Source: Sphingobacteriales bacterium TSM_CSS (GTDB lineage: Bacteria; Bacteroidota; Bacteroidia; Chitinophagales; UBA2359). From it: DNA of 64,000 bases. The stretch lies in the NCBI GenBank assembly GCA_002212985.1, contig NBMY01000115.1, forward strand, positions 1-64,000, in the 5' to 3' direction. Positions within the stretch are counted from its first letter, which is position 1. Each line of letters begins with the position of its first letter. Below the pieces are notes generated by a model. That model was not told the origin of the DNA and made no database searches. It was given only the letters and a program-made list of their open reading frames with translations. Shown here one piece after another: positions 34,794 to 57,300 of the stretch. Both the position numbers and the translations under genes were made by a program.

Positions 34794-37061
34794 TTAGAAA
34801 GGATACCCAATGGCTAAGTTCCACACAATATTATCGCGGCGCCAGTCTTTGGCAAAAGGCTGCGCCTTTTGAATTACCCAGCCCTGAGTAGGGGTTCTGA
34901 GCGGAAAAGCCCAATCGAGCCGAATGACGAAAAACACCAGGTCGAGGCGCAAGCCCACGCCGCTGCCAACACCAAATTGCTTGTAAAAACTGTTCCACCG
35001 GAATTTCGAATCTTCATCGCCCTTAAAAAGCCAAACATTGCCGGCATCGGCAAAAAGCGCACCTTTAATATAGGTATTCAGGCTAAAACGGTATTCTATG
35101 TTGGCGGATAACTTAATATCGCCGGTACGGTCAAAATTACCGGCGTTGGTACCGGTATCAAAAGCCTGCGAAACACCGGGCCCCAGGCTGCGAAGCCTGA
35201 ATGCCCGAAGGTCGTTGCTGCCGCCCGTAAAAAATTGCTTTACATAAGGCAAAACAGCTGAATTGCCATAGGGTATGCCAATGCCGCTCACAAGGCGGGT
35301 TACCAAAATCTGCTTGTTTCGGCTGCCGAGGTAGTTGAATCGGCGTAAATCTGCGTCGAGGCGCAGGTATTGGGCAAAGGGCACTCCCAACAATTCATGC
35401 GGGCTACTGCTACTGTTGTCAGTAGTTTTAAACAAGAGGTAAGCGAGGTTGCCGGTTAATTCTACATTGCTTTTAAAATACAGGTAATTGCGGTATTTCC
35501 CTTCGGGCGGCGGATTGGAGTAAATATAGGTATAGTTTGACCCGAAGATAAGTTGATTGGTAAAGCTGCGTTTTTGTTGGGGATTTTCGTCTAACTGGGC
35601 GAGAAAAGCAGAGTCGGCGGTAATAAGTTGTACAAAATTCAAAAAAGCGGGGTTAAAAATATGCTGCACGCTTTTTTGGGCACGCCAGTCGTACCCAAAG
35701 TTAAAATTGGCCAACCCTATGCTGTATTGCTGCAAACGGCGGGCAAAAGAATAACCTACCGAAAGGTTGGTTACAGGAATATAGTATTTTGAAATTTTAC
35801 CCATTCTGAAAGGTACAATGAGTTTGGGCACCTGTACTTTTGCCTGCCCGTTAATTTCAAAAGTATGGATAAAGGTTTGCCCAAAAGGGGTTTCAATACC
35901 GGTTCCAAGGTTAAAGGTAAAGGCTTCGGCACCTTTAAACCAGTTGCGGTTGCGATAGGTCATATTAAAAACAGAGCCTAAATAGCCTTCAACGGTGTTG
36001 GCCTCGGCCTCTACCTGAAGTTCACGTTGAGCATCGGGAGTAAGGTAAACGTATGCATTGAGCAGGTGTGCACTATCGGGTTGGGCTTTTTTAAATTTAA
36101 TATCTACAAATTTAAAAAGATCTATTTGCAGCAGGTGGTTAAGGGTGTATTCAAACTTCTTTTGTGAGTAGAGGTCGCCCTGCTGCAAGAGCATTTTATT
36201 AGCTAGGGCGGCAGGACGCACCACTTTTTGCGAGGTGATGAAATGGTAATTGTCATACACTACGGTATCGGCATCGGAGGTGGCTGCGTAGAGCGCAGAA
36301 TATTCGGGGTAAACAAAAATATTGTTAATATGGTAGGGAGCAAATGGTAGCCCGTTATTTTGCATTTGCGGGTTTACAAATAGGTTGATGGTACCTGATT
36401 GTTGGGCAGTATCGGCCTTAAAGGTAATATCGGCCGGGGTAAAATCGAAATAGCCCTGTTGGTGCAGCAGTCGGCTAATGCGGTTTTGTTCGGCTTGCAG
36501 TTGTTCGGTGTTGTAGGGGTTTCCGGGTTTTAGCAAGCTTTCGGAGTTGCTTTTTGCAATTATTTGCCCCAGTTTACCGGTATCTGTTTGGTAAACCACA
36601 CTGTTGTAGTGGTATTGGCGGTTGGGGATAAGCTGGTAAGTAAGGTCAATTACTTTGTTTTTGCGTGTAGAATCGTATTGTACATTGGCTTCAAAATAGC
36701 CTTTGTTAAACAAATAGTTTTCTAATTGTGTGCGGTTGTTTTGGGGTATAGCGGGGTTATACAATACCGGCGGTTGCCCGAATCGGCGGCCAATAAACCC
36801 CCTGATACCTCTTTTATGTCGCTGGCCAAGGTAATACGCCCAAAGTTTGGTTCGGAACATGCCAAACATTTTTTTGTTTGGCTGCGGGTTTAGCAGGTAT
36901 TCCAGTTCCGCCACCAGTTTTTTGGCGCTTTGCCCGTTGGGGGTTTCTTTTACTGCTACCACTGCCCCGCCATATAAATATTCGCCCTCTTTTAAATGCT
37001 TTACCGTATTACATGCGCCGGCAAGCAGCAGCAGGACACACAAAAATCCTATCAGTTTCAC
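34794..37061 (-). CDS. tamL: TamL-type outer-membrane assembly lipoprotein
   Basis: 755 residues from GTG at 37061 (a TTG just before is also possible). A lipobox (LLAGAC) marks it as a lipoprotein. The N-terminal third has POTRA-like segments, such as NYLFNKGYFEANVQYD, and the C-terminal third is a BamA/TamA-type barrel (SNDLRAFRLRSLGPG, terminal LAIGYPF). Lipid-anchored TamA relatives are known as TamL in Bacteroidota. It lies 55-58 bp after the pseudo-helicase-like gene and is probably co-transcribed. No tamB is in this window. Confidence 0.87.
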   Translation of the reverse strand: MKLIGFLCVLLLLAGACNTVKHLKEGEYLYGGAVVAVKETPNGQSAKKLVAELEYLLNPQPNKKMFGMFRTKLWAYYLGQRHKRGIRGFIGRRFGQPPVLYNPAIPQNNRTQLENYLFNKGYFEANVQYDSTRKNKVIDLTYQLIPNRQYHYNSVVYQTDTGKLGQIIAKSNSESLLKPGNPYNTEQLQAEQNRISRLLHQQGYFDFTPADITFKADTAQQSGTINLFVNPQMQNNGLPFAPYHINNIFVYPEYSALYAATSDADTVVYDNYHFITSQKVVRPAALANKMLLQQGDLYSQKKFEYTLNHLLQIDLFKFVDIKFKKAQPDSAHLLNAYVYLTPDAQRELQVEAEANTVEGYLGSVFNMTYRNRNWFKGAEAFTFNLGTGIETPFGQTFIHTFEINGQAKVQVPKLIVPFRMGKISKYYIPVTNLSVGYSFARRLQQYSIGLANFNFGYDWRAQKSVQHIFNPAFLNFVQLITADSAFLAQLDENPQQKRSFTNQLIFGSNYTYIYSNPPPEGKYRNYLYFKSNVELTGNLAYLLFKTTDNSSSSPHELLGVPFAQYLRLDADLRRFNYLGSRNKQILVTRLVSGIGIPYGNSAVLPYVKQFFTGGSNDLRAFRLRSLGPGVSQAFDTGTNAGNFDRTGDIKLSANIEYRFSLNTYIKGALFADAGNVWLFKGDEDSKFRWNSFYKQFGVGSGVGLRLDLVFFVIRLDWAFPLRTPTQGWVIQKAQPFAKDWRRDNIVWNLAIGYPF

Positions 37062-37119
37062 CAACTACAAACGGTTTTAACTGCAAGGCCATGCTTGTTA
37101 AGCACAGGCCTTGCGCAGA

Positions 37120-40100
37120 TTACTTACTCAGGTAAAAATCGTTTCGCTGCGAAGTCATGTAATTATTGCCCAACAAATTTCGCAACAAGGCCGATGCGGC
37201 CTTTAAATCAAAAAATTCAGGCAGTTCGGCACCTCCATATTTCAGAAACTGGTCTTTAGCGGGTTTAGGTTTACGCAAAATATCGGTTTGGCTGTTGGTG
37301 TCAAATAATTTGGCACTGCCAGAGGTAGTGGCATCTAAAAACCAAACTAAATAATCATCAAGCACCCTGAAAATATAATCCCAGTTATCGAAAATGCTTT
37401 GTACCAAGCCCAAATCCTGGTGAGCATCTTCAAAGATGCAGATTTGCATGACTTTTTCTGCCACTACCGGTTGCTGGTCTTTTACCCTTATCATTGGAAA
37501 CATTTGGGCAAATTTACCCTTATATGCCAACTGATTTAAAGGCGACCCGATGAGGATGTAGGAAAATGTTTCGGGAAATAGTGTGCACATAAGTTCGGTA
37601 AGCAATGCCGAAAAAGTAGCAGTTAGTTTCACCACATCTGCATCATCGGGCGTTTCAATGCTAAGTACCATTACCCTGCCCAACTGGTAGCTGCGCACCG
37701 GCACTTCGGTATCGGTTACTGTGGTATAGCTATGGGCATCGGTTTGCAGGCTAATATCAGAGGTAAAAGTAAAATAGCCACGGGTTCGCACATCAAAAGA
37801 GCCTTCACATAATTCAAGCGTAACTTTTTTGAGTAGATTCTTCTTTTGCGATTCGTTTAGCGGTTGGTCTAAACGATTGAGGGTTACCTCCAAATCGCTG
37901 CGGTAGGCCAGTACCGAAAGGGGTGAGCGGTATGCGGCCAGCATTTTATAGTTGAGTTTATCAAATCCTCTTATAGTATAAGGTCTTCCGGCAAAGGAGT
38001 GCGTTTGGTCGGGCAGGTAGTTTTGGAACAGCAAATCCATGCTAGTTACTTCAAGGGTATCTGCCCCCTGCACAATTTCTGCTTTTTTTAGAAAAGAGAG
38101 GTTAATATTGTCTTTTATTCGGGGTAAAAGGCCATACTTGGTAACTTGCTTAAAGCTATCGGTTTCGCGGTCATATTCAAAAGCTGCCCTTATAGATAAG
38201 TAGTTGGCGGCAATAATATCAATATCAAAAGCCACGCTGAACAGGTTTTGCAGTTCCTGTTTTACAAAAACGGCATTGGGGTTAATCCAGATGAGGTATT
38301 GCAATATCTGGTTTTCAGACATTTCCTGAATAACTAATTGTTCCAGCAATGTTCGGGCAACTTCAAATCTGCTGGTCATCATTTTTGAGGAAAGCCCGTA
38401 CACGGGTGTGCGCCAGAAATATTCAATGTGGTCGGCAAAATAAGCCCGAAGCAGGTATGGCGGGCTTACCACGTGCAAGAACAGGTTAGCGGTAGCGTAT
38501 TGCTGCCATTTTCGAAGGGCTGTAATAAGGTTGTATTCTGCATCGCGCACCAGCAAAAAGGTGTTTTCTCCTACGGACATGATAGCGTTTACCTCGTTAC
38601 ATTTTACCTCGTTAATACCTTTGTATTTAAGGGTTCGGGGCGCAACAACCGCTTGATTTAATCCGCCCGAATTGTTGTCGGTTTCTTCAAGGTATTCGTA
38701 ATAAGGCAGCAGTTCCTGTCCGGCAAGCCGGATATCGGTAATGCGCTCGCGGCGGGCCAACAGCGCCAGCACTACTTCGGCGCCAAGAAATTTTTCTATG
38801 TAGCCGGTAAGCACTTTGTGCTGAAACAACGAAGCGCCCTCTAATTTCCACAGGATTACAAAAGCCGTAGCCGGTAAATCGTGGCGCATTCTTACTTCCC
38901 GAAGGTTGCGTTTAACCTCCAGGTTGTGCATAACCGATGCCTGCAAGGCCTCGCGATAATCTGACAAGACAATGCTCTGAATTTTATTGAATTTGCCGCG
39001 CAAAATATTGAGCAGAATATTGTTGGAAGTAAGCGATTCGGAAAAAATTTCATCGCCGTTGAGGAACAACAAGGTTTTGAGGTTGGTAAACCAGTTATGC
39101 CCAATGATGTTTTTATCCAAAATATCATCGGCAGAGGTTACAATTATGCGCGAGGTAAACTCTACGTCTTCTACGCGGCTAAAGGTTTGCACCCTGAAAA
39201 ACTCGCGGTTGCTGGTAAGGCGGTAAATCCAGTCGTTAATCCAGTCAACAATTTGCTGGTGGTATTTTGAATTGGGGTAGCATCTTTTTGCGGTAAGCAC
39301 CAGTATATTTTCGCCGTCCATTAACCTGCGCAAAAAAACCGAAAACAAGAGCGGCGCTACTTCGTCAAGCACCATATCATCTATGAGCATATCGGTTTGG
39401 TTGGCCAAGTTTTGCAGTATGTCGTAATCGTTGAGGGTAAGGGTAAAGCCGGCATTTACTAAGTTTTGGGCTTCAATAATTTCTATGGTAGTGGGCGAAT
39501 GGGCTTTTTCCTGTGGGGGGTTAAATTTCCAGGCAAGCAGCAATTTGTCGAACCAGATTCGTTGGTATTCTTCCCAAAGGTTGTAATAATCAAGGGGAAC
39601 GGTGGTTTTTTCGGGTTCGGGTGCAGGCGGTTCGGGTTGTTCCTCTATACGCGGGTGTTTAAGGTACCAGTGCATTTCCAGTACAATAAAAATGGCAAAG
39701 GCACTTAATGCAGAAATGTTGAGTTGGTTAATGCCTAATTCATTGTCGAGAATTTTTAGCGCAAGCACCAATACAAACAAAACCAGCCCCAGCCACGCAA
39801 GGTATTTGGCATAAAGGCCGGCAAACACCCATTCTTTTTTGATAACAATACCGCCCTTGTCGTCTGTTTTATAGGCTAATGAAAAACGGGGCACCTGTTG
39901 CGGGGCATTTGGCTGTTGTTTTCGGACAAATAATTTACCGCCTTCATTAACAAGCAGTTTAAAAATTCCAAAAGCGCCAATAACCAGCAGTGAGTACATA
40001 ATTTCGGCATACCCTCTGAACATGGGTAAAAAACTGCCTTGCCTAATGAGGTAATCCACCTCGGTATAGTACTCGTAAATAGCAAGGGCAACCAACAGGG

Positions 40101-40215
40101 CGCCCAAAACCGGTATCCAATACTGTTTCCAGCGTTGCCCATACGGTTGGTTACCAATGGCCAACAAAAAGTAAACGCCTATGAGAGAAACAATAAGGTA
40201 TAAAATTATCTCCAT
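37120..40215 (-). CDS. Large membrane protein with a degenerate SF2 helicase-like domain
   Basis: 1031 residues, family not recognised. Five membrane helices are visible (about 3-20, 33-50, 68-88, 129-155, 167-186), then a Pro-rich linker. From about 250 the pattern follows an SF2 helicase: LLFSVFLRRLMDGENILVLT (motif Ia region), SRIIVTSADDILDKN (where active enzymes have IVTTPE), NLKTLLFLNGDEIF in place of VVIDEAHxL, and QSIVLSDYREA for motif III. No Walker A GKT and no DEAH is present. FAGRPYTIRGFD near 742-753 resembles the beta-rich part of YprA/MrfA-type helicases. A dead, membrane-tethered helicase fold is my inference. It lies between a two-TM partner gene and tamL. Confidence 0.6.
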   Translation of the reverse strand: MEIILYLIVSLIGVYFLLAIGNQPYGQRWKQYWIPVLGALLVALAIYEYYTEVDYLIRQGSFLPMFRGYAEIMYSLLVIGAFGIFKLLVNEGGKLFVRKQQPNAPQQVPRFSLAYKTDDKGGIVIKKEWVFAGLYAKYLAWLGLVLFVLVLALKILDNELGINQLNISALSAFAIFIVLEMHWYLKHPRIEEQPEPPAPEPEKTTVPLDYYNLWEEYQRIWFDKLLLAWKFNPPQEKAHSPTTIEIIEAQNLVNAGFTLTLNDYDILQNLANQTDMLIDDMVLDEVAPLLFSVFLRRLMDGENILVLTAKRCYPNSKYHQQIVDWINDWIYRLTSNREFFRVQTFSRVEDVEFTSRIIVTSADDILDKNIIGHNWFTNLKTLLFLNGDEIFSESLTSNNILLNILRGKFNKIQSIVLSDYREALQASVMHNLEVKRNLREVRMRHDLPATAFVILWKLEGASLFQHKVLTGYIEKFLGAEVVLALLARRERITDIRLAGQELLPYYEYLEETDNNSGGLNQAVVAPRTLKYKGINEVKCNEVNAIMSVGENTFLLVRDAEYNLITALRKWQQYATANLFLHVVSPPYLLRAYFADHIEYFWRTPVYGLSSKMMTSRFEVARTLLEQLVIQEMSENQILQYLIWINPNAVFVKQELQNLFSVAFDIDIIAANYLSIRAAFEYDRETDSFKQVTKYGLLPRIKDNINLSFLKKAEIVQGADTLEVTSMDLLFQNYLPDQTHSFAGRPYTIRGFDKLNYKMLAAYRSPLSVLAYRSDLEVTLNRLDQPLNESQKKNLLKKVTLELCEGSFDVRTRGYFTFTSDISLQTDAHSYTTVTDTEVPVRSYQLGRVMVLSIETPDDADVVKLTATFSALLTELMCTLFPETFSYILIGSPLNQLAYKGKFAQMFPMIRVKDQQPVVAEKVMQICIFEDAHQDLGLVQSIFDNWDYIFRVLDDYLVWFLDATTSGSAKLFDTNSQTDILRKPKPAKDQFLKYGGAELPEFFDLKAASALLRNLLGNNYMTSQRNDFYLSK

Positions 40216-40304: not shown

Positions 40305-42449
40305 TTATTTAAAAGCGGTGTCGCGGGCATAAATTTTATCTTTGTCAAAGGTTATGCTGCTAATAAGCCGTGCATATCTTGAGTTAACTGGGTAGTTGAT
40401 GTTTTCAACTATGGCGGCGTTGTTATCTTGTTTGCTTATTATATAGGTAGCCGGCATATACACTTCGTTCATTAGAGGCGGTTGGGTAATATCGGGTTCG
40501 GGGGTTGGCTGATTGTAATTGGTAGTTATGGTTCTGTTATCGGGGTTAAAAAGCGCCATCAGTTTATTGGCTACAGATTTATGCGCCTGCAGGTTCCGGC
40601 GGTGAAAATCGAGCAATAGGTTGGTTTCCTGTTGTTGGTCGCGGGCTTTAAGGGCAAGTTCATAGTTGCCGCGCACCACGTTGAGGTTGCACAAAGATTT
40701 GAGGTATGTTTTTTGCCTTTCAAATTCATTGTTTATATCGGTTCGGCGCATTTGTGCATTGTCAAACACATGTTGCAAAATGCGTTTTATATCTTTGGTG
40801 TGTTTGCGTTTTGCAAGCAGCAAGGCCAGCAAACACATTAGCAACATAGCCACCATAACCGATGAGTAGTAGCTGAATTTTACCCCGCCACCTTCAAACC
40901 GAATGGCGGCGTTGGTAAAAGAAAGGGTAAAAATTACCACACTAATGCCCACTATCCACAACAATTCGGTAACGCTGGGGCGGCTAAAGAGTTTGGGTTT
41001 TAGCAATCCTTCCTGTTGCTGCCTGAAATCGTTCCAATCATATTCATAGGCTTTTGTGAGGAAATTTTGTTTAGCCTCATCTTGAAAGGTTTGCCGTTGC
41101 CGGTTCAGGTCTTCGGCTTTGGTATTAATATCAGCCACATCAGCAATAACGGCATCGGCATCAGATTTAAAACTCTTATTAATGCAGGACTGCATTTTGC
41201 GTTTTGCCTGCAGGCTGTAGTCTTCCAATTGTTTGTTTACCTCTTTGTTCCAGTCGTTCCATCGGGCCAAGTCGCCGTTTTCACGCAAAAATCCTACGGT
41301 GAAAATATCAGACTGCACGCGGTCAAGAATTTCATTGCAACCACAGTTGGTGTTCTGAAACATTTTAAGCGCAACAGAAGGCGGGGTATTAATGCGGTTG
41401 GTAAGCCGGGTTTCCATGTTGTGCAACTGTTCGCGGTACACCTGTATGAGTTGCATCATTTCGGGGTTATTCAAGTCAACTTTCAGGGTATAGTTTTTTT
41501 TACCTAAGTTTTTTACTGCTTCTTCTTCATCGGTAATCAGGCAAAGCAAAAAACTTAGTTGCAGCAAACTGCGCTGCACCACACTGTCGTGGCTCATTTG
41601 AAAAGGCATTCTTATAAGCCGGAACACATCGTTTTCAATGGCAAAAATACCCAATTGCTCGGCAAAACAGCTTTTCAGCGTATCAGACGGCGAAAAATTG
41701 GCATATCTTGTGGGGTCGTTGCGCGTATTTTCCAGCCTTTTCAAAAACTCGGTTTTAATTTCCTGCAGGGTTTGCGCATCTATATAATCAATGGCTGTTG
41801 CGGTTTTATAAACATCGGCAACCAATTTGCGCTCGTTCAGAATGGCATCTGCTTTATCGGCAATATTTTTTACTTCCTGTTTTATTTCTTCCTGTTTTTG
41901 CAGCGGCAAGCCGGCAAACCCGCGGTTTAAAATAATGGTACTGTCTAACTGAATGCGGCGCCACATATTATCTAACTCCTGCAATTCGCGGTCGGAGGTG
42001 ATAAAATTGCCTTCGGTGCGTATAAACCCGAAGGTATCCAATTCCCAACAGTCGCGGTATATTTTGCTGGCGTTAATGGCGGGTATGGCATCATCTTCGT
42101 TAATTTGGTCGAGGGCTATGATAAAGGTATTATTGGGCTTTGCAGGTATGCGGCTGCTGTTTAAAAACAACTTGCGTATTAACAGCATGTGCGCCGAAAT
42201 GCTGTCGCGATAGGGCGATTGCTGCCTTACATCTATGCTTATCAGAAACACAGCCTGCCATTTTACATACCCCACTCGCTCCAGAGTTTTGCGCACTTCC
42301 ATGCCTGCCTGTTCTATGCGCTGTGCCAAACTTGCCTCAGCAGGAAACAAGATTTTCAGTTTTTCTTCTTTCTGCTGCGGGTACAAAAAGGGTTCCGACA
42401 GTGCGAGGCCGGGTATGCCGGGGTGCAGGTTAATTACAAATGTAAGCAT
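40305..42449 (-). CDS. Large two-TM protein of unknown function, partner of the pseudo-helicase gene
   Basis: 714 residues, no family recognised and no signal peptide. Residues 60-120 have a Rossmann-like beta-alpha pattern (VKWQAVFLISIDV, then NNTFIIALDQI). A long helical part follows, with NTNCGCNEIL near 367. Two membrane helices (about 495-514 and 527-547) form a hairpin, and the C-terminal 165 residues begin with a basic coiled coil. The gene leads an operon with the 1031-residue protein (90 bp downstream) and tamL. The conserved order should be checked in relatives; nothing here shows the biochemical role. Confidence 0.6.
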   Translation of the reverse strand: MLTFVINLHPGIPGLALSEPFLYPQQKEEKLKILFPAEASLAQRIEQAGMEVRKTLERVGYVKWQAVFLISIDVRQQSPYRDSISAHMLLIRKLFLNSSRIPAKPNNTFIIALDQINEDDAIPAINASKIYRDCWELDTFGFIRTEGNFITSDRELQELDNMWRRIQLDSTIILNRGFAGLPLQKQEEIKQEVKNIADKADAILNERKLVADVYKTATAIDYIDAQTLQEIKTEFLKRLENTRNDPTRYANFSPSDTLKSCFAEQLGIFAIENDVFRLIRMPFQMSHDSVVQRSLLQLSFLLCLITDEEEAVKNLGKKNYTLKVDLNNPEMMQLIQVYREQLHNMETRLTNRINTPPSVALKMFQNTNCGCNEILDRVQSDIFTVGFLRENGDLARWNDWNKEVNKQLEDYSLQAKRKMQSCINKSFKSDADAVIADVADINTKAEDLNRQRQTFQDEAKQNFLTKAYEYDWNDFRQQQEGLLKPKLFSRPSVTELLWIVGISVVIFTLSFTNAAIRFEGGGVKFSYYSSVMVAMLLMCLLALLLAKRKHTKDIKRILQHVFDNAQMRRTDINNEFERQKTYLKSLCNLNVVRGNYELALKARDQQQETNLLLDFHRRNLQAHKSVANKLMALFNPDNRTITTNYNQPTPEPDITQPPLMNEVYMPATYIISKQDNNAAIVENINYPVNSRYARLISSITFDKDKIYARDTAFK

Positions 42450-42900: not shown

Positions 42901-43389
42901 ATGAAAAAGATTGCTATTTTTTTAAGCCTTGTCATTTTTTTGACTTCCTGTGGCGGCGGACAAGTAACCCCGCCCCCCGCAACTATTGAAAAAACAAGCG
43001 GAGGCGGAAGCAATGCTACAGATGCTGCCGCCGGCAACACGGTAGCGGCAGGTAAAGGTATTGGACAAATTACCTCTGTAGAACTAAAAACCCCGCTGGA
43101 GCAAGATCGCATAGGAAGAGGTAAAAGCATTTATGACATGAAATGCCAGGCCTGCCACAAACTTACCGATGAACGGCTGGTAGGCCCGGGTTGGAAAGAC
43201 GTTACCAAACGCCGCAAACCCGAATGGATTATGAACATGGTTACCAACGTTGACGCAATGCTGGAACAAGACCCCGAAGCACAAAAACTCCTCGAACTGT
43301 GTTTAACCCGAATGCCTAACCAAAATATATCGGTAGGCGACGCCCGCGATGTGCTGGAGTTTATGCGCCAAAACGACGGGGAAAAATAA
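42901..43389 (+). CDS. Lipoprotein cytochrome c, nos-associated
   Basis: 162 residues. The lipobox is FLTSCGG; a Gly/Ala/Thr-rich linker of about 50 residues follows; one haem site is YDMKCQACHKL, and a Met ligand is probably in LTRMPNQN. It is the first gene after the CRP/FNR-type box and precedes nosZ by 66 bp. A c-type cytochrome in this position is usual for clade II nos clusters and probably delivers electrons to NosZ from the quinol pool. Confidence 0.92.
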   Translation: MKKIAIFLSLVIFLTSCGGGQVTPPPATIEKTSGGGSNATDAAAGNTVAAGKGIGQITSVELKTPLEQDRIGRGKSIYDMKCQACHKLTDERLVGPGWKDVTKRRKPEWIMNMVTNVDAMLEQDPEAQKLLELCLTRMPNQNISVGDARDVLEFMRQNDGEK

Positions 43390-43455
43390 ACAGCCAATTC
43401 CTCTTAAAGCACAAAAAAACCAACCTTTTTTTCTAAACCAATTAAGTTATACTAT

Positions 43456-45456
43456 ATGAAAACTTCTTTCTCTTTTAAGTCTTGGCTTGCAGCTATCGGC
43501 ATTTTTGTTGTTGTGGTTGCGTTGTCCATAAATGGTTGTAAACCGCGCAATGTTGCCACTGCTGTGCAGGGCGATGCTGCCGGTAAAGTATATGTAGCCC
43601 CGGGTAAATACGATGAATTTTACAACTTTGTATCGGGCGGTTTCAGCGGACAAATGAGCGTTTACGGACTTCCATCGGGAAGAATGCTGAAAGTGATGCC
43701 TGTTTTTTCGGTAAACCCCGAAAGCGGCTACGGTTATTCCGAAGAATCCAAACCCATGCTCAACACCTCCCACGGGTTTGTACCTTGGGATGATTTACAC
43801 CACCCCGAATTGTCGCAAACCGATGGCGAAGTGGACGGACGTTGGGTGTTTGGCAATGCCAACAATACGCCGCGTATTGCCCGTATTGACCTTAAAACGT
43901 TCAGAACTGCCGAAATTATTGAAATTCCGAACAGCAGCGGTAACCACTCCTCGCCGTTTATTACCGAAAATACCGAATATGTAGTAGCGGGCACCCGTTT
44001 CAGTTATCCTATTGATGACAATGGAAGCAACCCCGATGTATCTATTAACACCTATAAAGATAACTTTAAAGGTACGGTTTCTTTTGTAAGCGTTGATAAA
44101 GCCACGGGCGCTATGGATATTGCCTTCCAGATTTTACTGCCCGGCGTTAACTTTGACCTTGCCCACTCCGGCAAAGGCCCCTCCAGCGGCTGGTTCTTCT
44201 TCTCTTGCTACAATACCGAGCAAGCCTATACCCTGCTGGAAGTAAACGCCTCGCAAAAAGACAAAGACTTCATTATGGCCGTGAACTGGAAAAAAGCCGA
44301 AGAATATGTTAAACAAGGTAAAGGTAAAAAAATGAGTGTGCGCTATGCCAGCAACCGCTATGATGAGGGAACCCATACCGCCACCTCTACCATTAAAAAC
44401 CAAGTGTTGGTACTTGACCCAAAAGAACTGGCCGATATGGTATATTTTATTCCGTGTCCCAAATCACCGCACGGCTGCGATGTGGACCCCACCGGCCAAT
44501 ATATTGTGGGTAGCGGTAAATTGGCTGCCACCATACCCGTATTTTCGTTTGCCAAAATACAAACCGCCATTCAGGGCAAAGACTTTGACGGCGATTTTGC
44601 CGGTATTCCGGTAATCAAATATGAATCGGCATTGCACGGTGAAGTAAAAAAACCGGGCTTAGGCCCTCTACACACCGAATTTGACGGAAAAGGTAATGCC
44701 TATACCTCTTTCTTTGTATCTTCGGAAATTGTAAAATGGAATATTGACAAATTGGAAGTGCTCGACCGCGTTCCTACTTATTACTCCATCGGCCACCTTT
44801 GCGTGCCGGGCGGCGACTCTAAAAAACCCTTTGGTAAATATGTAATTGCCTACAATAAAATTACCAAAGACCGCTACCTCCCCACCGGACCCGAATTAAC
44901 CCAATCGGCACAACTGTACGATATTTCGGGCGACAAAATGCAATTACTGCTCGACTTCCCCACCATTGGCGAACCGCACTATGCACAGGCTTGTCCGGCA
45001 GAATTGCTCATGAAAAACTCGACTAAAATCTACAAAATTGAAGAAAACCGAAATGCCTATGCAGCCAAAGGTGAAGGGCAAAGTAAGGTGGAACGCAAAG
45101 GTAAAGAAGTGCATGTTTACATGACTTCCATTCGCTCACACTTCTCGCCCGATAATATTGAAGGGGTAAAAATGGGCGATGATGTTTACTTCCATGTAAC
45201 CAATCTGGAACAAGACTGGGACGTACCCCACGGCTTTGCTATAAAAGGCGCCAACAATGCCGAACTGCTCATTATGCCGGGCGAAACTCAAACGCTGAAA
45301 TGGACACCCGACCGCATTGGCGTATTTCCGTTATATTGCACCGACTTTTGCTCTGCGCTGCACCAGGAAATGCAAGGTTACCTGCGCGTTTCGCCTGCCG
45401 GCTCAAACGTGCCGCTTACCTTCTCAATGGGTAAAAACAGCAGCAAGCCGGAATAA
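43456..45456 (+). CDS. nosZ: Nitrous oxide reductase, clade II (Sec-type)
   Basis: 666 residues. It reduces N2O to N2 in the periplasm. The propeller with the CuZ histidines includes DDLHHPELS, SGNHSSPF, FDLAHSGKG, SPHGCDVD, LGPLHTEFD, YSIGHLCVP and GEPHYAQACP. The C-terminal cupredoxin carries CuA in YCTDFCSALHQEM. The signal is Sec-type without twin Arg and ends in LSINGC, possibly a lipobox. Sec export, the adjacent cytochrome c and the NosL fusion place it in clade II. No nirK, nirS or nor gene is in the window. Confidence 0.97.
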   Translation: MKTSFSFKSWLAAIGIFVVVVALSINGCKPRNVATAVQGDAAGKVYVAPGKYDEFYNFVSGGFSGQMSVYGLPSGRMLKVMPVFSVNPESGYGYSEESKPMLNTSHGFVPWDDLHHPELSQTDGEVDGRWVFGNANNTPRIARIDLKTFRTAEIIEIPNSSGNHSSPFITENTEYVVAGTRFSYPIDDNGSNPDVSINTYKDNFKGTVSFVSVDKATGAMDIAFQILLPGVNFDLAHSGKGPSSGWFFFSCYNTEQAYTLLEVNASQKDKDFIMAVNWKKAEEYVKQGKGKKMSVRYASNRYDEGTHTATSTIKNQVLVLDPKELADMVYFIPCPKSPHGCDVDPTGQYIVGSGKLAATIPVFSFAKIQTAIQGKDFDGDFAGIPVIKYESALHGEVKKPGLGPLHTEFDGKGNAYTSFFVSSEIVKWNIDKLEVLDRVPTYYSIGHLCVPGGDSKKPFGKYVIAYNKITKDRYLPTGPELTQSAQLYDISGDKMQLLLDFPTIGEPHYAQACPAELLMKNSTKIYKIEENRNAYAAKGEGQSKVERKGKEVHVYMTSIRSHFSPDNIEGVKMGDDVYFHVTNLEQDWDVPHGFAIKGANNAELLIMPGETQTLKWTPDRIGVFPLYCTDFCSALHQEMQGYLRVSPAGSNVPLTFSMGKNSSKPE

Positions 45457-45561
45457 CAAATGCTGCAACGCCTTGAGAATTTTTACCAAAAAGCAGCAAG
45501 TAAAAACAACTGTAACAAAAAACACGAAGAACAGGGCTGAATAAGTAGTAATTTCTCTGCA

Positions 45562-45602
45562 AACCTTGCGGGTAAACCTACAGCCCGCAAGGTTATTTTT
45601 TT
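45562..45602 (+). terminator. Strong terminator between nosZ and nosL
   Basis: AACCTTGCGGG and CCCGCAAGGTT form a perfect 11-pair stem with an 11-nt loop, followed by A and seven T. It ends just before the nosL fusion gene and should lower its expression relative to nosZ. Confidence 0.88.
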
Positions 45603-45620
45603 ACCAAACTTTCTGACCAA

Positions 45621-46661
45621 ATGAACAAGCTATCAAAAATTACAAGGGTATTCATTGCCGGCTCTGCGCTTTTGCTCATTGCCACTTACTTTTTACCCGC
45701 ATGGAAAATTCTTCTGTGGGCGCCCCAATACCCCGAAGGATTGGAAATGAAAATATGGCTCACCAAACTATCGGGCGATGTAAAGGTGATTAACGGGCTA
45801 AACCATTACATCGGCATGAAAGAAATTCACGAAGAAATGTTTCCCGAATTTACCTGGCTTCCTTATATTGTAGCATTTTACATTGCAATTGGTTTGGCAG
45901 TAAGCCTGCTCAACCGCCGAATGGGGTTGTTGGTATATGTGTTGCTGCTCATTGCCGGCGCCGCTGCCGCCCTTACCGATTTTTACCTTTGGGGCTACGA
46001 CTATGGACACAACCTGAACCCCGATGCTGCTATTGTGGTACCGGGCATGGCTTATCAGCCTCCTTTGCTGGGGTATAAAGTGCTGCTCAACTTTACTGCT
46101 CTTTCTATACCCGATACCGGCGGCTGGATTTTTACCGCCGTAGGTGCAATTGCTATTTTGTGCCTTGTATATGAATTTTGGAGAAGCCGCAACCTAAAAA
46201 CACAAAGTAAACCTGCCACTGCAATTGTGACCTTTGTTCTGCTTACTTCCGTGTTGCTGTCTTTTACCTCTTGCGGCATTGAACCCCGCCCCATTAACTA
46301 TGGTAAGGACATATGCAGCCACTGCAAAATGACCCTCGTGGACAAACGATTTGGTGCCGAAGCAGTTAGCAAAAAAGGTAAAGTATTTGTTTTTGATGAT
46401 TTGGGATGTATGTCCGCATGGGCAAAATCGGGCGAGGTAAAAACCGATGCTATTGCTTTGTGGCTAACCGCCGATTTTTCTGAACAAGGAACGCTAACCG
46501 ATGCCACTAAATCCTTTTACCTGCAACACCCCGAACTGAAAAGCCCCATGGCTTCCAATATTGCCGGTTTTGCGCAGGAAAACGGGTTAAAAACCGTACA
46601 AAACCAATTGGGCAATGGTAGAACTTTAACCTGGCCCGAAGTATTAAACAGTAACAGGTAA
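45621..46661 (+). CDS. nosL: Membrane-domain/NosL fusion, copper chaperone for NosZ
   Basis: 346 residues. The N-terminal half has four membrane helices (about 9-31, 80-98, 101-120, 165-186) and no named domain. A further hydrophobic segment runs to LLSFTSC (Cys 218), the lipobox of an ordinary NosL, then ICSHCKMTLVDKRFGAEAV, the Cu(I)-binding NosL motif, and a full NosL domain to the end. NosL delivers copper to NosZ. The retained internal lipobox suggests fusion of a membrane protein with a former lipoprotein. Confidence 0.88.
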   Translation: MNKLSKITRVFIAGSALLLIATYFLPAWKILLWAPQYPEGLEMKIWLTKLSGDVKVINGLNHYIGMKEIHEEMFPEFTWLPYIVAFYIAIGLAVSLLNRRMGLLVYVLLLIAGAAAALTDFYLWGYDYGHNLNPDAAIVVPGMAYQPPLLGYKVLLNFTALSIPDTGGWIFTAVGAIAILCLVYEFWRSRNLKTQSKPATAIVTFVLLTSVLLSFTSCGIEPRPINYGKDICSHCKMTLVDKRFGAEAVSKKGKVFVFDDLGCMSAWAKSGEVKTDAIALWLTADFSEQGTLTDATKSFYLQHPELKSPMASNIAGFAQENGLKTVQNQLGNGRTLTWPEVLNSNR

Positions 46662-46724
46662 TTTTTTTGCTAAGTTTGCACTTGTATTGGCAGTATTTTT
46701 TTCATGCCTTAACTGCTAAAATGT

Positions 46725-47984
46725 ATGTTGTACCGCATATTTATCTGCTTTTTCCTGTTACTAACTTCCCAAAATTGTGCCTTTGCCGCCACTGTAGAGG
46801 TTTGCCCCAACTGCAACACAACTTCCGTTGCACAAGCCATTAATATAGCACAACCCTGCGATACAGTGCTGGTTCAAGCCGGAACCTACCACGAACCAAC
46901 CCTGCTGATTGATAAGCCGCTTTTCTTAATTGGCCGCAATTTCCCCATTCTCGACGGGCAGGAAAAAGTGGAAATTATTTCGGTACAAGCCAGCCAGGTA
47001 GTCATTGACGGGTTTCAAATAATAAACGCCGCCTTTTCCAGTTCAAGAGAACTTGCCGGCATAAATGTTATGAACGCCGGCTATATACAAATTAGTAACA
47101 ACCGGTTAAACAACACCTGTTTTGGCATTTACTTAGCCAATGTTAACAACAGCGCCATTCTTAACAACACCCTGCAGGCACAGGCAACCATAGAATTAAG
47201 CGCCGGAAACGGCATCCATGCATGGAAATGCAACAACCTGCTAATAAACGGCAATACCGTGACCGGCCACCGCGATGGTATTTACTTTGAATTTGTAACC
47301 TACTCTTCCATTATCAACAACCACAGTCACAAAAACCTGCGTTACGGGTTGCACTTTATGTTCTCCAACAACGACCGCTACCAAAACAACATTTTTGAAA
47401 ATAACGGCGCCGGCGTTGCCGTCATGTACAGCAACAAGGTAACTATGATTAACAACCATTTTGTACACAACTGGGGCGACAGCGCCTACGGCTTACTGCT
47501 GAAAGACATAGCCGACAGCCATATTGAAGGTAATTTGTTTGAAGAAAATACCACCGGCATACACATGGAAGGCAGCAGCAGAATGGATCTGATTTATAAT
47601 ACCTTTACCCAAAACGGTTGGGCAGTGCAACTGCAGGCCAGTTGCGACAACAATGATTTTAGTAACAATAATTTTACCGGAAATACTTTTGATATTGCCA
47701 CCAATGGCACATTAGTGCTTAATAAAATTAACCACAACTTCTGGGATAAATATGAAGGCTACGACCTGAATAAAGACGGCATTGGCGATGTGCCCTACCG
47801 CCCGGTGAGCCTCTACTCTATGTTGGTTGCCGAAATGCCCTTTACCATTATGCTTTGGCGCAGCTTTGTGGTGTATCTTATAGACCGCATGGAAAAACTC
47901 CTGCCAAGCCTTACCCCCGAAAACATGCTGGATTCTTCGCCACTTATGAAAAAAGTAAATTATGATACAAGTAAATCAACTTAA
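46725..47984 (+). CDS. nosD: NosD, periplasmic NosZ maturation factor
   Basis: 419 residues with a signal peptide and a right-handed beta-helix of many short repeats rich in Asn (for example NNRLNNTCFGIYLANVNNSA and ENNGAGVAVMYSN). NosD belongs to the CASH/pectate lyase-like fold and supports sulfur/copper loading of the CuZ site with the NosFY ABC transporter. A TAAGTTTG element at 46671-46678 may give an extra promoter. Its 3' end overlaps nosF by 23 bases. Confidence 0.94.
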   Translation: MLYRIFICFFLLLTSQNCAFAATVEVCPNCNTTSVAQAINIAQPCDTVLVQAGTYHEPTLLIDKPLFLIGRNFPILDGQEKVEIISVQASQVVIDGFQIINAAFSSSRELAGINVMNAGYIQISNNRLNNTCFGIYLANVNNSAILNNTLQAQATIELSAGNGIHAWKCNNLLINGNTVTGHRDGIYFEFVTYSSIINNHSHKNLRYGLHFMFSNNDRYQNNIFENNGAGVAVMYSNKVTMINNHFVHNWGDSAYGLLLKDIADSHIEGNLFEENTTGIHMEGSSRMDLIYNTFTQNGWAVQLQASCDNNDFSNNNFTGNTFDIATNGTLVLNKINHNFWDKYEGYDLNKDGIGDVPYRPVSLYSMLVAEMPFTIMLWRSFVVYLIDRMEKLLPSLTPENMLDSSPLMKKVNYDTSKST

Positions 47985-48693
47985 CAAAAAATTTGGCAGT
48001 CTTCATGCCCTCAAAGACGTAAATGTGTCGTTCAACACAGGGCAGGTAGTAGCAGTCATAGGGCCAAACGGTTCGGGAAAAACCACGTTCATTAAATGCC
48101 TGCTGGGCATGGTATTACCAGATACCGGCCAAATTTTGTTTGATGGGCAAAACATTGCCAACAACTGGAACTACCGCCGCCATATAGGATATATGCCCCA
48201 AATTGGCCGCTACCCCGATAACATGGAAGTAGGGCAATTGTTTGAAATGATGAAAGACATACGAACCGAAAACAACCTTGCCCCGATAACAGACACTGAA
48301 CTGCTGGATTCCTTTGAAATGGAAAAAATTAACCAAAAACCCATGCGCACCCTTTCGGGCGGAACCCGGCAAAAAGTTAGCGCCTGCCTGGCTTTCCTCT
48401 TCGGGCCAAAAGTGTTGATTTTAGATGAACCAACCACCGGATTAGACCCTTTGTCGGCAGAAATTCTGAAAGCCAAAATTGCCCGCGAAAAAACCAACAA
48501 CAAACTGGTACTTATAACCTCCCATATATTGAGCGACCTTGACGAACTGGTAACCGATGTGCTGTATATTTTTGAAGGCGATGTGCTTTTTTATAAACCA
48601 CTTCAAAACCTTAAAACCGATACCGGCGAAGACAAACTAAGCCGAGCCATAGCCAAAATTATACAATCGGGACACAAATTAACGCAGGCGTAG
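47962..48693 (+). CDS. nosF: NosF, ABC transporter ATP-binding protein
   Basis: 243 residues. Walker A is GPNGSGKTT, the signature LSGGTRQKVSACLAF, and Walker B VLILDEPTTGLDP. It pairs with NosY to move a sulfur species or otherwise energise NosZ maturation. Its start lies inside the end of nosD, so translation is probably coupled. Confidence 0.94.
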   Translation: MIQVNQLNKKFGSLHALKDVNVSFNTGQVVAVIGPNGSGKTTFIKCLLGMVLPDTGQILFDGQNIANNWNYRRHIGYMPQIGRYPDNMEVGQLFEMMKDIRTENNLAPITDTELLDSFEMEKINQKPMRTLSGGTRQKVSACLAFLFGPKVLILDEPTTGLDPLSAEILKAKIAREKTNNKLVLITSHILSDLDELVTDVLYIFEGDVLFYKPLQNLKTDTGEDKLSRAIAKIIQSGHKLTQA

Positions 48694-48784
48694 GGTAAAT
48701 ATACGCATCTGCTGTTGCACCTCACCAATACACTAAGCAGTAATGCCCGGCAATTTTATTTTCCTTTAAAACAAAACAAGAACC

Positions 48785-49516
48785 ATGAACCACCTCATAA
48801 GCCCCTCCGAAACCGTAGGGCAAATTGTTGCCCGAAACTTCAACACGGCAACCGTGTTTGAAAAATATAATATAGACTTTTGCTGCGGTGGCAAAAAAAC
48901 GCTGCAAACTGTTTGCGCCGAACAACACCTTAATTTCGACACACTATACCTTGAGGTAGAAGAAGCCGCCAACAGGCAGGTGCCGCCCTCACAAAATGCC
49001 GCCTATTGGTCACTAACCTTTTTAACCGAATACATTGTACATACACACCATCGGTATGTTCAAGAGTCAATTCCGGTACTGTTAAAATATACTGCCAAAA
49101 TTGCCTCGGTGCATGGTAAAAACCACCCCGAACTTATTGAGGTAGCACGCCTTTTTGCCGAACTTGCCCAAGACCTGTTGCAACACATGAAAAAAGAAGA
49201 AATTATTTTATTCCCATACATTAACGATCTGGCTGACGGCAATAATATGTCAATTCCTTCCACAACTTTTGGCTCGGTTAACAGCCCTATAATGGTAATG
49301 GAGCAAGAACACGAAACCGCCGGCAACCTCATGCACCAAATAAGAACACTTACCCATAACTACACCTTGCCCGATGATGCCTGCAATACATACGGCGTAA
49401 CCTTTGCCCGCCTGCAAGAGTTTGAAACAGACCTGCACCGGCATGTACACTTAGAAAACAACATTCTTTTCCCAAAAACCAAACAACTAGAGCAAACCTT
49501 GACCGACGGAAAATAA
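48785..49516 (+). CDS. ric: Iron-sulfur cluster repair di-iron protein (Ric/ScdA/YtfE)
   Basis: 243 residues. The N-terminal DUF542 domain shows the YNIDFCCGGKKTL motif; the rest is hemerythrin-like with His/Glu ligands in VHTHHRYV, HMKKEEIIL, EQEHETAG and HRHVHLENNIL. It repairs Fe-S clusters damaged by nitric oxide or oxidants. It sits inside the nos cluster, between nosF and a membrane protein gene, which links N2O respiration to protection against nitrosative stress. Confidence 0.94.
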   Translation: MNHLISPSETVGQIVARNFNTATVFEKYNIDFCCGGKKTLQTVCAEQHLNFDTLYLEVEEAANRQVPPSQNAAYWSLTFLTEYIVHTHHRYVQESIPVLLKYTAKIASVHGKNHPELIEVARLFAELAQDLLQHMKKEEIILFPYINDLADGNNMSIPSTTFGSVNSPIMVMEQEHETAGNLMHQIRTLTHNYTLPDDACNTYGVTFARLQEFETDLHRHVHLENNILFPKTKQLEQTLTDGK

Positions 49517-54375: not shown

Positions 54376-57300
54376 TTACTTTGTTTTGTTCACCCACCCG
54401 TCTAATTCTGTTTTTTTGTGTAGAAAAAGACTGTCGTGGGTTTGTTCAAATAGGCGGGTGTAAATTTCTCCGGCAGTGCGGCAGTTTTCGGAAGAACGTT
54501 TTTGGCGGGCCAACAGGGTATAATATTGCGCATAGGCATACATGCGGGCTTCGTTGCCTTCAGAAAAAAGCCAACCGAGGCGGTTAATACCAAGCCGGCG
54601 GTCATTATCTTCCACATCGTATTTTTTCATATCCTGGGCGGTAAGAAACGCAAGATGGCGTTTATTGGCATCGGCAATCATAGAGTCGGGTTCTATGAGC
54701 CATATTCTGGCGGTTCCGTCTTTTGATGCGGTAACCAACCTGCTGCCCTGTGCCGCAAAGGCAACCCCTTCAACGGCGGCGGTATGCCCGCTAAGGGTAA
54801 TCAGTTCTTCGCCGTTCAGGTTCCAGATTCTGGCCGTCTTGTCGGCCGAAGCGGTAACAATACGGTTGCTTTGAGGTAAAAATGTGGCAAAATTTACCAC
54901 TCCCGAATGCCCCGCAAGGGTTTGCAATTCGCGTCCGTCTGCTGTCCAAATTCGGGCGGTTTTGTCGCGTCCGGCAGTTACAATATATTTGCCATCATCA
55001 GAAAAGGCAGCATACATAACCGGCGCTTCGTGGCCTTTAAGTATGGCAGCTACCGAGGCATCTTTTACCCGCCAAACAATAGCAAGGCTATCTCGTCCGG
55101 CGGTTACCAGCAGTTTGTCGTCGGGCGAAAAGTTTACGCTTTCCACCGCGCCGGCATGACGGGCAAAGGTGCGCAGCAGTTGCCCGCTGCTGCTCCACAA
55201 TTTGGCGGTATTATCGCGGCTGGAGGTTGCTATCAGCAGTTGGTCGTTGTTAGAAAAAACCGCGCCCGTAACTGCATCGGTATGTCCTCGCAGGGTAAGA
55301 AGTGAACGGCCGTACACGTTCCACAGCATAGCGGTGCTATCGGCCGAGGCGGTTACAATTTGTTGTCCATCGGGCGAAAAGGCGGCTGTAAATACGTAGC
55401 CGTTGTGTCCCAGCAAATCGGCCACTTTTTTGCCCGCTGCATCCCAAACTACGGCTTTTTTGTTGCGCCCTGTTGTAACCAGATACCTGCCGTTGGGCGA
55501 TGCTGCTACAGAATGAATTTCGTTGCCCTGGTTATCGAGGCGGTTGCCGGTTAAATACCAAATGCGGGCGGTATTGTCTTCCGATGCAGTAAGCAAAGTA
55601 TTGCCGTTTGTGGTACAGGTGCTGCAAAAGGGCGAATAAACCACGCTGTATATGAAACTGTGCGGGCAAGGTATGGTTTTAAGCTCCTGCCCTTCGGTGT
55701 TCCATAGTTTAATGGTAAAGTCACGGGCAACAGTGGCAATGGTTTTGCCATCGGGCGAAAAATCTGCTCCTTCCACATACCCGTTGTGACCGGTCAGTAC
55801 GGCAAGCAGGTTTCCGTCAAGGCTCCATAAGCGGGCCGTATTGTCGTCTGAAGTGGTAATGATCATGTCATCGCTGGGCGAAAAAGCGGCATAATTTACC
55901 CCCGATAAATGCCCTTCCAACAAATGCAGAGGGGTTCCGTCTGCCTTCCAGATTCGGGCGGTTTTATCTGCAGAGGTGGTAACAATATACTGCCCGTTGT
56001 GCGACCACGCTGCCCAGTCCACATAATTATCATGCCCTTCGAGGGTAAAGAGCAGTTGTCCTCTGTTGTTCCATACCCTTGCGGTATTATCCCATGAAGC
56101 GGTAAGCACACGGCTGCCATCGGGCGAAAACAGGGCAGAGCGAACTTCGTTGCGGTGGCCGGCGAAAATGGCGGCAATTTTCCGGTTGCTGTTCCAGAGT
56201 ACGGCAGTATCGTTGCTTAAAGCGGCCAGAATTTGCGTTCCATCGGGCGAAAAAGAGGCATGGTTAACCCTTGCATGGGTGCGGTAAACAACGGTATCGC
56301 CCGAAAGCACATGCCAAACAATCACCGAGTTATCGGAAGAAGCGGTAACAATTCGGCTGCCGTCGGGCGAAAAAGCTGCGCTGTTTACCGCCTGCGTATG
56401 TCCCGAAAACTCGCTGTACATAGCGCTTTGGTGGTAGGCATTCCAAATTGCCTGAAACGAACGGGTGTTGTTATGGGTTCTGAAGGCATATTCTGCCAAC
56501 CTGAAACTTTTGGTGGGTGCAGCTTCGAGAAGCGTACCCGACTTAAAGGCGAGGTCGTAAGACAAAGAGAGCAGGGTTTTATCTACTGCCTGCCGCCATA
56601 GCCAGCCAATAACCAACGTGGCAACTACAAGCGCTCCTAACATAGAAAAACCTACAATTTGCCGTTGTTTTTTGGCGCGTTGCTGTTTGTTTCGTTTTTG
56701 AATACTGGCGTCAATCAGTTCCTGCTCGTTGGCATTAAAGGCCGGCAACCATTGCCTGCTTAACTCTACAATATTTAAATCGGCTTCATCGAGCAAGTTT
56801 TTGCGGTTACCCTTTTTCCAGTCAATGAGTTTGTTTTTAAAAATGCGGTTGGCTCGTTGTACAGGCAGGTCGGAGTTGTCATACATTTCCCGAATAACCG
56901 GTGCTAAAATATCGTGCGAGAGGCTCAATTCAATGCCCTGCGGGCTGCCGTCTGATGCCGGAGTTTCGCCAAACAGAAACAATTGCTTAAAATGCTCTGC
57001 CAAGCCGGGTACAATGGCCGATGCGTTGGGAAATTGCAACAAAAGGTCGGACAATTTGCGTTTGGAAACTGTTCCCTGTGGGTTTACAAAACTGCGCAAT
57101 ACCTCCAGTGCAAAACCCGATTCTACTACTTCTGGAATATGCGCCGATAATTCGCTCAGCTTTTGCTGCAGGAAATCGGACAACAAAATGCCCTCGTCTT
57201 TGAGGTTAAGGTACAAAACGCGGGTAAATTCGGGGTTTTCGGGATTGCTTTTGACCGCGGTATCCCACATTTTGGTCAGCAAAATCTGCAAAACCGGGGC

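Follow-up and report, generated by a model that had tools for sequence, protein, structure and literature searches.

The locus described here raises the question of what a membrane protein with the outline of a helicase, and with none of the ATPase motifs, could be for. The original prediction, read from the letters of the window (the whole 64,000-nucleotide stretch analysed here), had placed in it a 1031-residue protein in which five membrane helices precede a dead SF2 helicase of the MrfA/YprA type. The ORF listing of the window confirms this reading frame at its full length, and we refer to its product as P0001 (Table 1). It is more than a chance ORF, since the frame is open, with zero stops, in 10 other genomes (identity 25–68%) and dN is low relative to dS: against a same-genus copy, dN is 0.25 and dS 1.98 (about 2.0), values which indicate that the protein is under strong purifying selection. 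Homologs were found in 11 of the 61 genomes searched, the window's genome counted, with the frame open every time; a single copy was found in the window's genome (G000). The matches are in MAGs labelled Bacteroidetes, Bacteroidia, Chitinophagales or Saprospiraceae. Members of this family are few: 2 of 395 genomes across the phylum had one, and the class-wide sample of 395, searched with a long P0001 form, held no additional clear member, with one partial match of 68 residues (E = 9e-4). Promoter and terminator scans around the gene gave nothing informative.

The N-terminal 185 residues make up the membrane part. DSSP applied to the AlphaFold model places five hydrophobic helices at about residues 2–19, 34–59, 67–97, 127–160 and 171–185, in line with the number first proposed; under a strict hydropathy cut-off, four segments pass. 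The loops between helices 1 and 2 and between 3 and 4 have net charges of +2 and +5, and those between 2 and 3 and between 4 and 5 of +1 and −1. These charges fit the positive-inside rule and suggest an N-out/C-in topology, in which the remainder of the protein, with its predicted helicase body, would lie in the cytoplasm.

The helicase pattern had been proposed from short segments, all of which are present in P0001 (LVLT at residues 306–309, IVTSADDIL at 358–366, LKTLLFLNGDEIF at 379–391, SIVLSD at 414–419 and, further on, GRPYTIRGFD at 743–752). The pattern was recovered in the AlphaFold2 structure but not by any of the sequence methods. Scans of P0001 against Pfam and PADLOC gave no family, neither phmmer nor hmmsearch turned up a helicase among PDB sequences, and hhalign of the P0001 family against seven DUF1998 helicases gave scores no higher than those of column shuffles; against RecQ, DEAD-box and FtsZl1 alignments, hhalign gave nothing significant. 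Its best local alignments do register the positions of motifs I, II and III, but with scores not above column shuffles we did not use them as evidence. We also set aside as chance a PezT match, the sole NCBIfam match of P0001 (17.6 bits, cut-off 470), and a GhoS match in the Pfam scans of P0001 and P0002. The helicase likeness of P0001 is undetectable from sequence and detectable only in the predicted structure.

Profile and structure searches had been named beforehand as the test, with either no helicase match or a match to a transporter or secretion component as the contrary outcomes. In our Foldseek search of the P0001 model against 350,542 PDB chains, the best four matches were all MrfA/YprA, with E-values of 3.3e-16 (6znp_A, 839 columns), 1.2e-12, 5.1e-11 and 7.3e-10, and were followed by DEAD-box and Hel308 domains at 5.7e-5 (about 6e-5) and weaker. 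With VIA-align, the RecA1 region gave Z-scores of 13.5–15.7 over about 180 residues against many SF2 RecA1 domains, and the alignment with MrfA spans model residues 238 to 1015; from this whole-model alignment comes also the likeness to the OB-connector-DUF1998 module, at fold level. In the model a strand at 227–231 precedes RecA1, and RecA2 is followed by a helical domain, by beta domains and by a DUF1998-like end, an order that agrees with the MrfA layout (PMC12458937). Its pLDDT is mostly about 65–83 over RecA1 (245–430), and mostly 65–88 over residues 615–960, weaker near 700–730. The proposal of a dead, MrfA/YprA-like SF2 helicase in the membrane is borne out by this model, in which RecA2 (434–612) has pLDDT below 50. 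We consider it very probable that the cytosolic part of P0001 has an MrfA-like (DUF1998 SF2 helicase) fold.

Our motif scan of P0001 was negative for Walker A, DExH and arginine-finger motifs, the first two as originally claimed, and all three are likewise absent from 23 family sequences (14 non-redundant, with the most distant, L011, L022 and L025, included). In the model, a DMVLDEV segment sits at the place of the P-loop, between strand 276–279 and helix 287–299. With the motifs missing from every one of the 14 non-redundant sequences, the distant ones included, their loss would most simply be ancestral to the family. It would also be wrong to class P0001 as a working YprA helicase, the ATPase motifs that define one having been looked for and found missing. 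Mean entropy in the family alignment is 1.53 for RecA1, the presumed RecA2 and the DUF1998-like part alike and 2.03 for the membrane part, and this higher conservation of the cytosolic domains argues for a kept surface and not for decay. As to the four-cysteine zinc cluster, P0001 and the short forms contain no CxxC; in the long forms, a separate C4 pair precedes an HExxH motif. This C-terminal C4 zinc motif with HExxH, seen in the long forms L011, L013, L022 and L025 together with a sub-threshold match to the DUF6782 metallopeptidase, has either disappeared from the window's lineage or never arose there.

Table 1. P0001, its parts and its partner gene in the window.
Feature	Position in the window	Strand	Basis
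P0001, membrane-anchored, with predicted MrfA-like ATPase-dead SF2 helicase body	37120..40215	-	ORF, homologs, model, Foldseek, VIA-align, motif scan
P0001 residues 3-185: five hydrophobic helices	39661..40209	-	Hydropathy, loop charges, DSSP on model; topology inferred
P0001 residues 245-432: RecA1-like domain	38920..39483	-	pLDDT mostly 65-83; VIA-align Z 13.5-15.7
P0001 residues 280-286 (DMVLDEV): P-loop place, no GxGK[ST]	39358..39378	-	Model, family alignment, motif scan; register inferred
P0001 residues 386-389 (NGDE): DExH place after strand 379-385	39049..39060	-	Model, alignment; register inferred
P0001 residues 433-612: presumed RecA2	38380..38919	-	Position; sequence conserved; pLDDT <50 over most
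P0001 residues 613-855: helical, then beta domains at the MrfA OB/connector position; holds GRPYTIRGFD	37651..38379	-	Model, MrfA match over 238-1015, MrfA layout from PMC12458937
P0001 residues 856-962: DUF1998-like position, without zinc cysteines	37330..37650	-	Model, Foldseek, VIA-align, motif scan, alignment
P0002, 714-aa partner	40305..42449	-	89 bases upstream of P0001, same strand

The partner P0002 has an alpha/beta N-terminal part, two membrane helices (about 493–511 and 528–546) and a long C-terminal coiled coil. The two genes are adjacent in the window and in G001, G004, G007, G010 and G017, and P0002 was found in 10 of the 11 P0001 carriers. Its structure matches were weak and were not used: one was dynamin-like (Foldseek E = 1.6e-3, probability 0.47) and one lipase-like (Z 7.6). 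Pfam and NCBIfam yielded no usable family for P0002 either, and PADLOC gave one weak match for it, PDC-M49B (E = 4e-4), absent from the relatives scanned. P0002-like genes were also suspected, by layout, in the distant FtsZl1 operons L087 and L088, and hhalign gave no support.

Elsewhere in the window, a TamL lipoprotein gene (34794–37064, minus strand; NCBIfam, 706 bits) lies 55 bases downstream of P0001, and a nitrous-oxide reductase cluster (42901–49516, plus strand) encodes a cytochrome c, a nos propeller protein, a NosL-like protein, NosD and an ABC ATPase; a gene for a hemerythrin/ScdA-type protein comes next. Further along, a 1607-residue protein (54376–59199, minus strand) combines an nSTAND1 NTPase domain with 12 or more WD40 repeats; many STAND-WD40 proteins act in conflict or signalling.

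A gene-neighbourhood comparison had also been suggested, and when we ran it, P0002 and, in relatives, FtsZl1 recurred beside P0001. In four distant loci (L022, L024, L025 and L026), a gene for a protein of about 1100 residues is followed by a P0002-type gene and then by a P0001-like gene whose product has about 1260–1280 residues; the L024 copy ends at the contig end, the L026 P0002-type gene was assigned by position and layout and not by sequence, and L025 has a small gene between the P0002-type and P0001-type genes. The first gene encodes a Tubulin_2 protein (PF13809; E = 5e-58 and 9e-49 in the two copies scanned), and in L024 and L026 a gene for a secreted vWA-like protein precedes it. According to the main text of Makarova and Koonin (2010; PMC2875224), Tubulin_2 corresponds to their FtsZl1 family, for whose systems they predicted a membrane machinery that includes vWA partners. 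The vWA label used here rests on the DxSxS motif and homology, with Pfam vWA scores sub-threshold or absent.

The window's genome has all four genes, scattered over contigs. Its FtsZl1 (contig C148:62182–65445; Tubulin_2 E = 1.5e-52) keeps intact GTP-loop motifs (GLGGIGS and GGTGSG), and its vWA-like protein, with DNSKS, is on contig C39. Among the 61 genomes, close FtsZl1 proteins occur in 12: all 11 P0001 carriers and one of the 50 non-carriers. This sole FtsZl1-only genome, G002, is an 87%-complete draft without P0001 and P0002, an absence that could be due to one missing contig. Fisher's exact test for P0001 and FtsZl1 gives 2.9e-11 over all genomes and 7e-5 within the family, both inflated by shared descent. 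Of the first 13 family members searched for the vWA-like protein, nine had it (eight P0001 carriers and G002); the carrier G008 gave no match. Traces of linkage also exist within the family: in G008, P0002 is immediately preceded by the end of FtsZl1, and in G007, FtsZl1 and vWA-like genes share one contig. Since the four genes are scattered in most family members, the FtsZl1 link rests on co-occurrence and on the operons of distant relatives. From these shared operons and this co-occurrence, we hold with high confidence that P0001 and P0002 belong to the FtsZl1 gene set. P0001 is not universal to FtsZl1, given that other FtsZl1 operons of the phylum do not have it.

Several other genes were seen around FtsZl1. 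In G007, a gene between FtsZl1 and the vWA-like gene (L106:4484–5566, minus strand) encodes a membrane protein whose C-terminal stretch looks OmpA-like by eye; OmpA-like partners of FtsZl1 are reported in the main text of the 2010 paper (PMC2875224). TIR-iSTAND and MoxR-type AAA genes lie about 3 kb from FtsZl1 on C148 of G000 (L037:4647–6928), and proteins with TIR-like N termini, again by eye, adjoin FtsZl1 in two other genomes (L041:5240–6258 and L048:2593–3324); this TIR/AAA proximity could be chance. Two secreted or membrane proteins with the look of transglutaminase-like cysteine peptidases (GDC...H, by eye) are encoded in separate FtsZl1 neighbourhoods (L026:14569–15549 and L087:4135–5166, both minus strand) and resemble each other in BLAST across 72 residues (E = 1.6e-5).

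Taking fold, motif loss and gene set together, we slightly favour, as the best explanation of the whole, that P0001 would be a helicase-derived, ATP-independent component of an FtsZl1-type membrane machine. Its cytoplasmic part would descend from a DUF1998 (MrfA/YprA-type) SF2 helicase, with ATP binding and hydrolysis lost before the P0001 family diversified. The machine would consist of the Tubulin_2 GTPase, P0002, P0001 and the secreted vWA-like protein. The helicase-derived clamp may serve as a rigid, ATP-independent adaptor at the inner face of the inner membrane, where P0001 with P0002 may tether or nucleate the FtsZl1 polymer, and the vWA-like protein may complete the complex on the periplasmic side. 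We propose the tethering role of P0001 and P0002 tentatively, giving it a little less than an even chance. Of the functions suggested originally, a scaffold in envelope biology is the one that fits the association with FtsZl1, the vWA-like protein and membrane proteins.

TubZ-type tubulins couple to plasmid DNA, and the dead body of P0001 could by analogy bind DNA or RNA and couple it to the FtsZl1 polymer, as a nucleic-acid sensor or a factor in DNA uptake or segregation. Such a role would suit the predicted body, which has the fold of a DNA helicase and includes OB-like and helical domains, and XPF, a DNA-junction enzyme, retains an ATPase-dead SF2 module (PMC7048804). However, no DNA-related gene is conserved beside P0001 in the loci compared, and the cytosolic part is mostly acidic, with a pI of 5.2–6.3 in most members; active DUF1998 helicases overlap this range, net charge being non-discriminating for DNA binding. 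We regard this reading as unlikely.

It is improbable that low model confidence has produced a spurious RecA-like match and that P0001 is an unrelated alpha/beta membrane protein. The AlphaFold2 model was built from a shallow alignment of 12 family sequences, free of helicases, and has a mean pLDDT of 62 and a pTM of 0.43, and no sequence-level helicase match rose above shuffles; but all MrfA chains came first, about five orders of E-value or more ahead of the next fold, and the domain order fits MrfA. As a negative control, P0002 taken through the same AlphaFold2/Foldseek route gave no match at E ≤ 0.001, so the route does not yield helicase matches by default.

An anti-phage role, also among the original suggestions, found no support and appears very improbable. 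P0001 would then be a degenerate relative of the DISARM, Druantia or ARMADA YprA helicases, and YprA helicases are indeed the core of several defence systems (PMC12458937); the TIR-iSTAND and MoxR-type AAA genes near FtsZl1 in G000 would agree with it. Yet PADLOC was empty for P0001, its distant forms, FtsZl1 and the vWA-like protein, searches of 50,697 phage records, 72,556 plasmid records and viral contigs gave zero matches, no nuclease or methylase partner was found, and the window neighbourhood is metabolic (the nos cluster). Hardly credible, finally, is an envelope-biogenesis or secretion factor apart from FtsZl1 with a function set by its window neighbours. In its favour, TamL starts just downstream on P0001's strand, with an SPFH-domain gene after it, but neither recurs beside P0001 and the next genes differ among the loci compared, whereas FtsZl1 and P0002 recur.

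Returning to P0001 as a putative FtsZl1-machine component, its closest structural counterpart among the chains searched is MrfA (YprA; PDB 6znp, 6znq and 6zns); the alignment takes in the predicted RecA1 and the beta-rich C-terminal part and covers almost all of the cytosolic region. Compared with MrfA, P0001 adds five N-terminal membrane helices, has no Walker A, DExH, zinc cysteines or detectable sequence similarity, and is associated with FtsZl1 and P0002 instead of MrfB. By predicted fold, P0001 falls in the same superfamily as the defence helicases DrmA/DrmB, DruE, DpdJ and those of ARMADA, and loss of the four-cysteine cluster is also found in Dpd (PMC12458937); however, these proteins are encoded in defence operons with nucleases or methylases, and that source describes no membrane-anchored or tubulin-linked member among them. 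XPF likewise keeps an SF2 helicase body as a rigid inactive module (PMC7048804), but it is a soluble nuclease subunit acting in DNA repair, whereas P0001 is a bacterial membrane protein that lacks a nuclease domain. The Tubulin_2, secreted vWA-like and membrane proteins of the 2010 FtsZl1 set recur in the operons of the distant relatives and in G000; in the window's family, unlike that set as given in the main text (PMC2875224), the genes are scattered and not clustered.

In the literature searched, no function of FtsZl1 had been tested beyond the membrane-remodelling prediction of 2010. The main text of a 2025 survey of about 52,000 YprA-like proteins reports no tubulin and no transmembrane forms (PMC12458937), and that of the 2010 paper no helicase-derived component (PMC2875224), so that the membrane-anchored, putatively helicase-derived subunit is an addition to the set described there. 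What is new here would be, by predicted fold, an ATPase-dead relative of DUF1998 helicases in a known, uncharacterised, tubulin-linked gene set. That an MrfA-type helicase lost its motor, became membrane-bound and is now a fixed structural subunit of the FtsZl1 machine, a pseudohelicase serving the cytoskeleton, strikes us as evenly balanced between true and false. FtsZl1 tubulins are widespread, and they can now be tied to a concrete set of four genes that is kept together even when unlinked and that brings in two new membrane subunits, one of them of an unexpected predicted fold. Through P0001, the question of what FtsZl1 does becomes testable. If the proposal is true, the few known helicase folds retained for their structure and not for their motor would be joined by one in a membrane.
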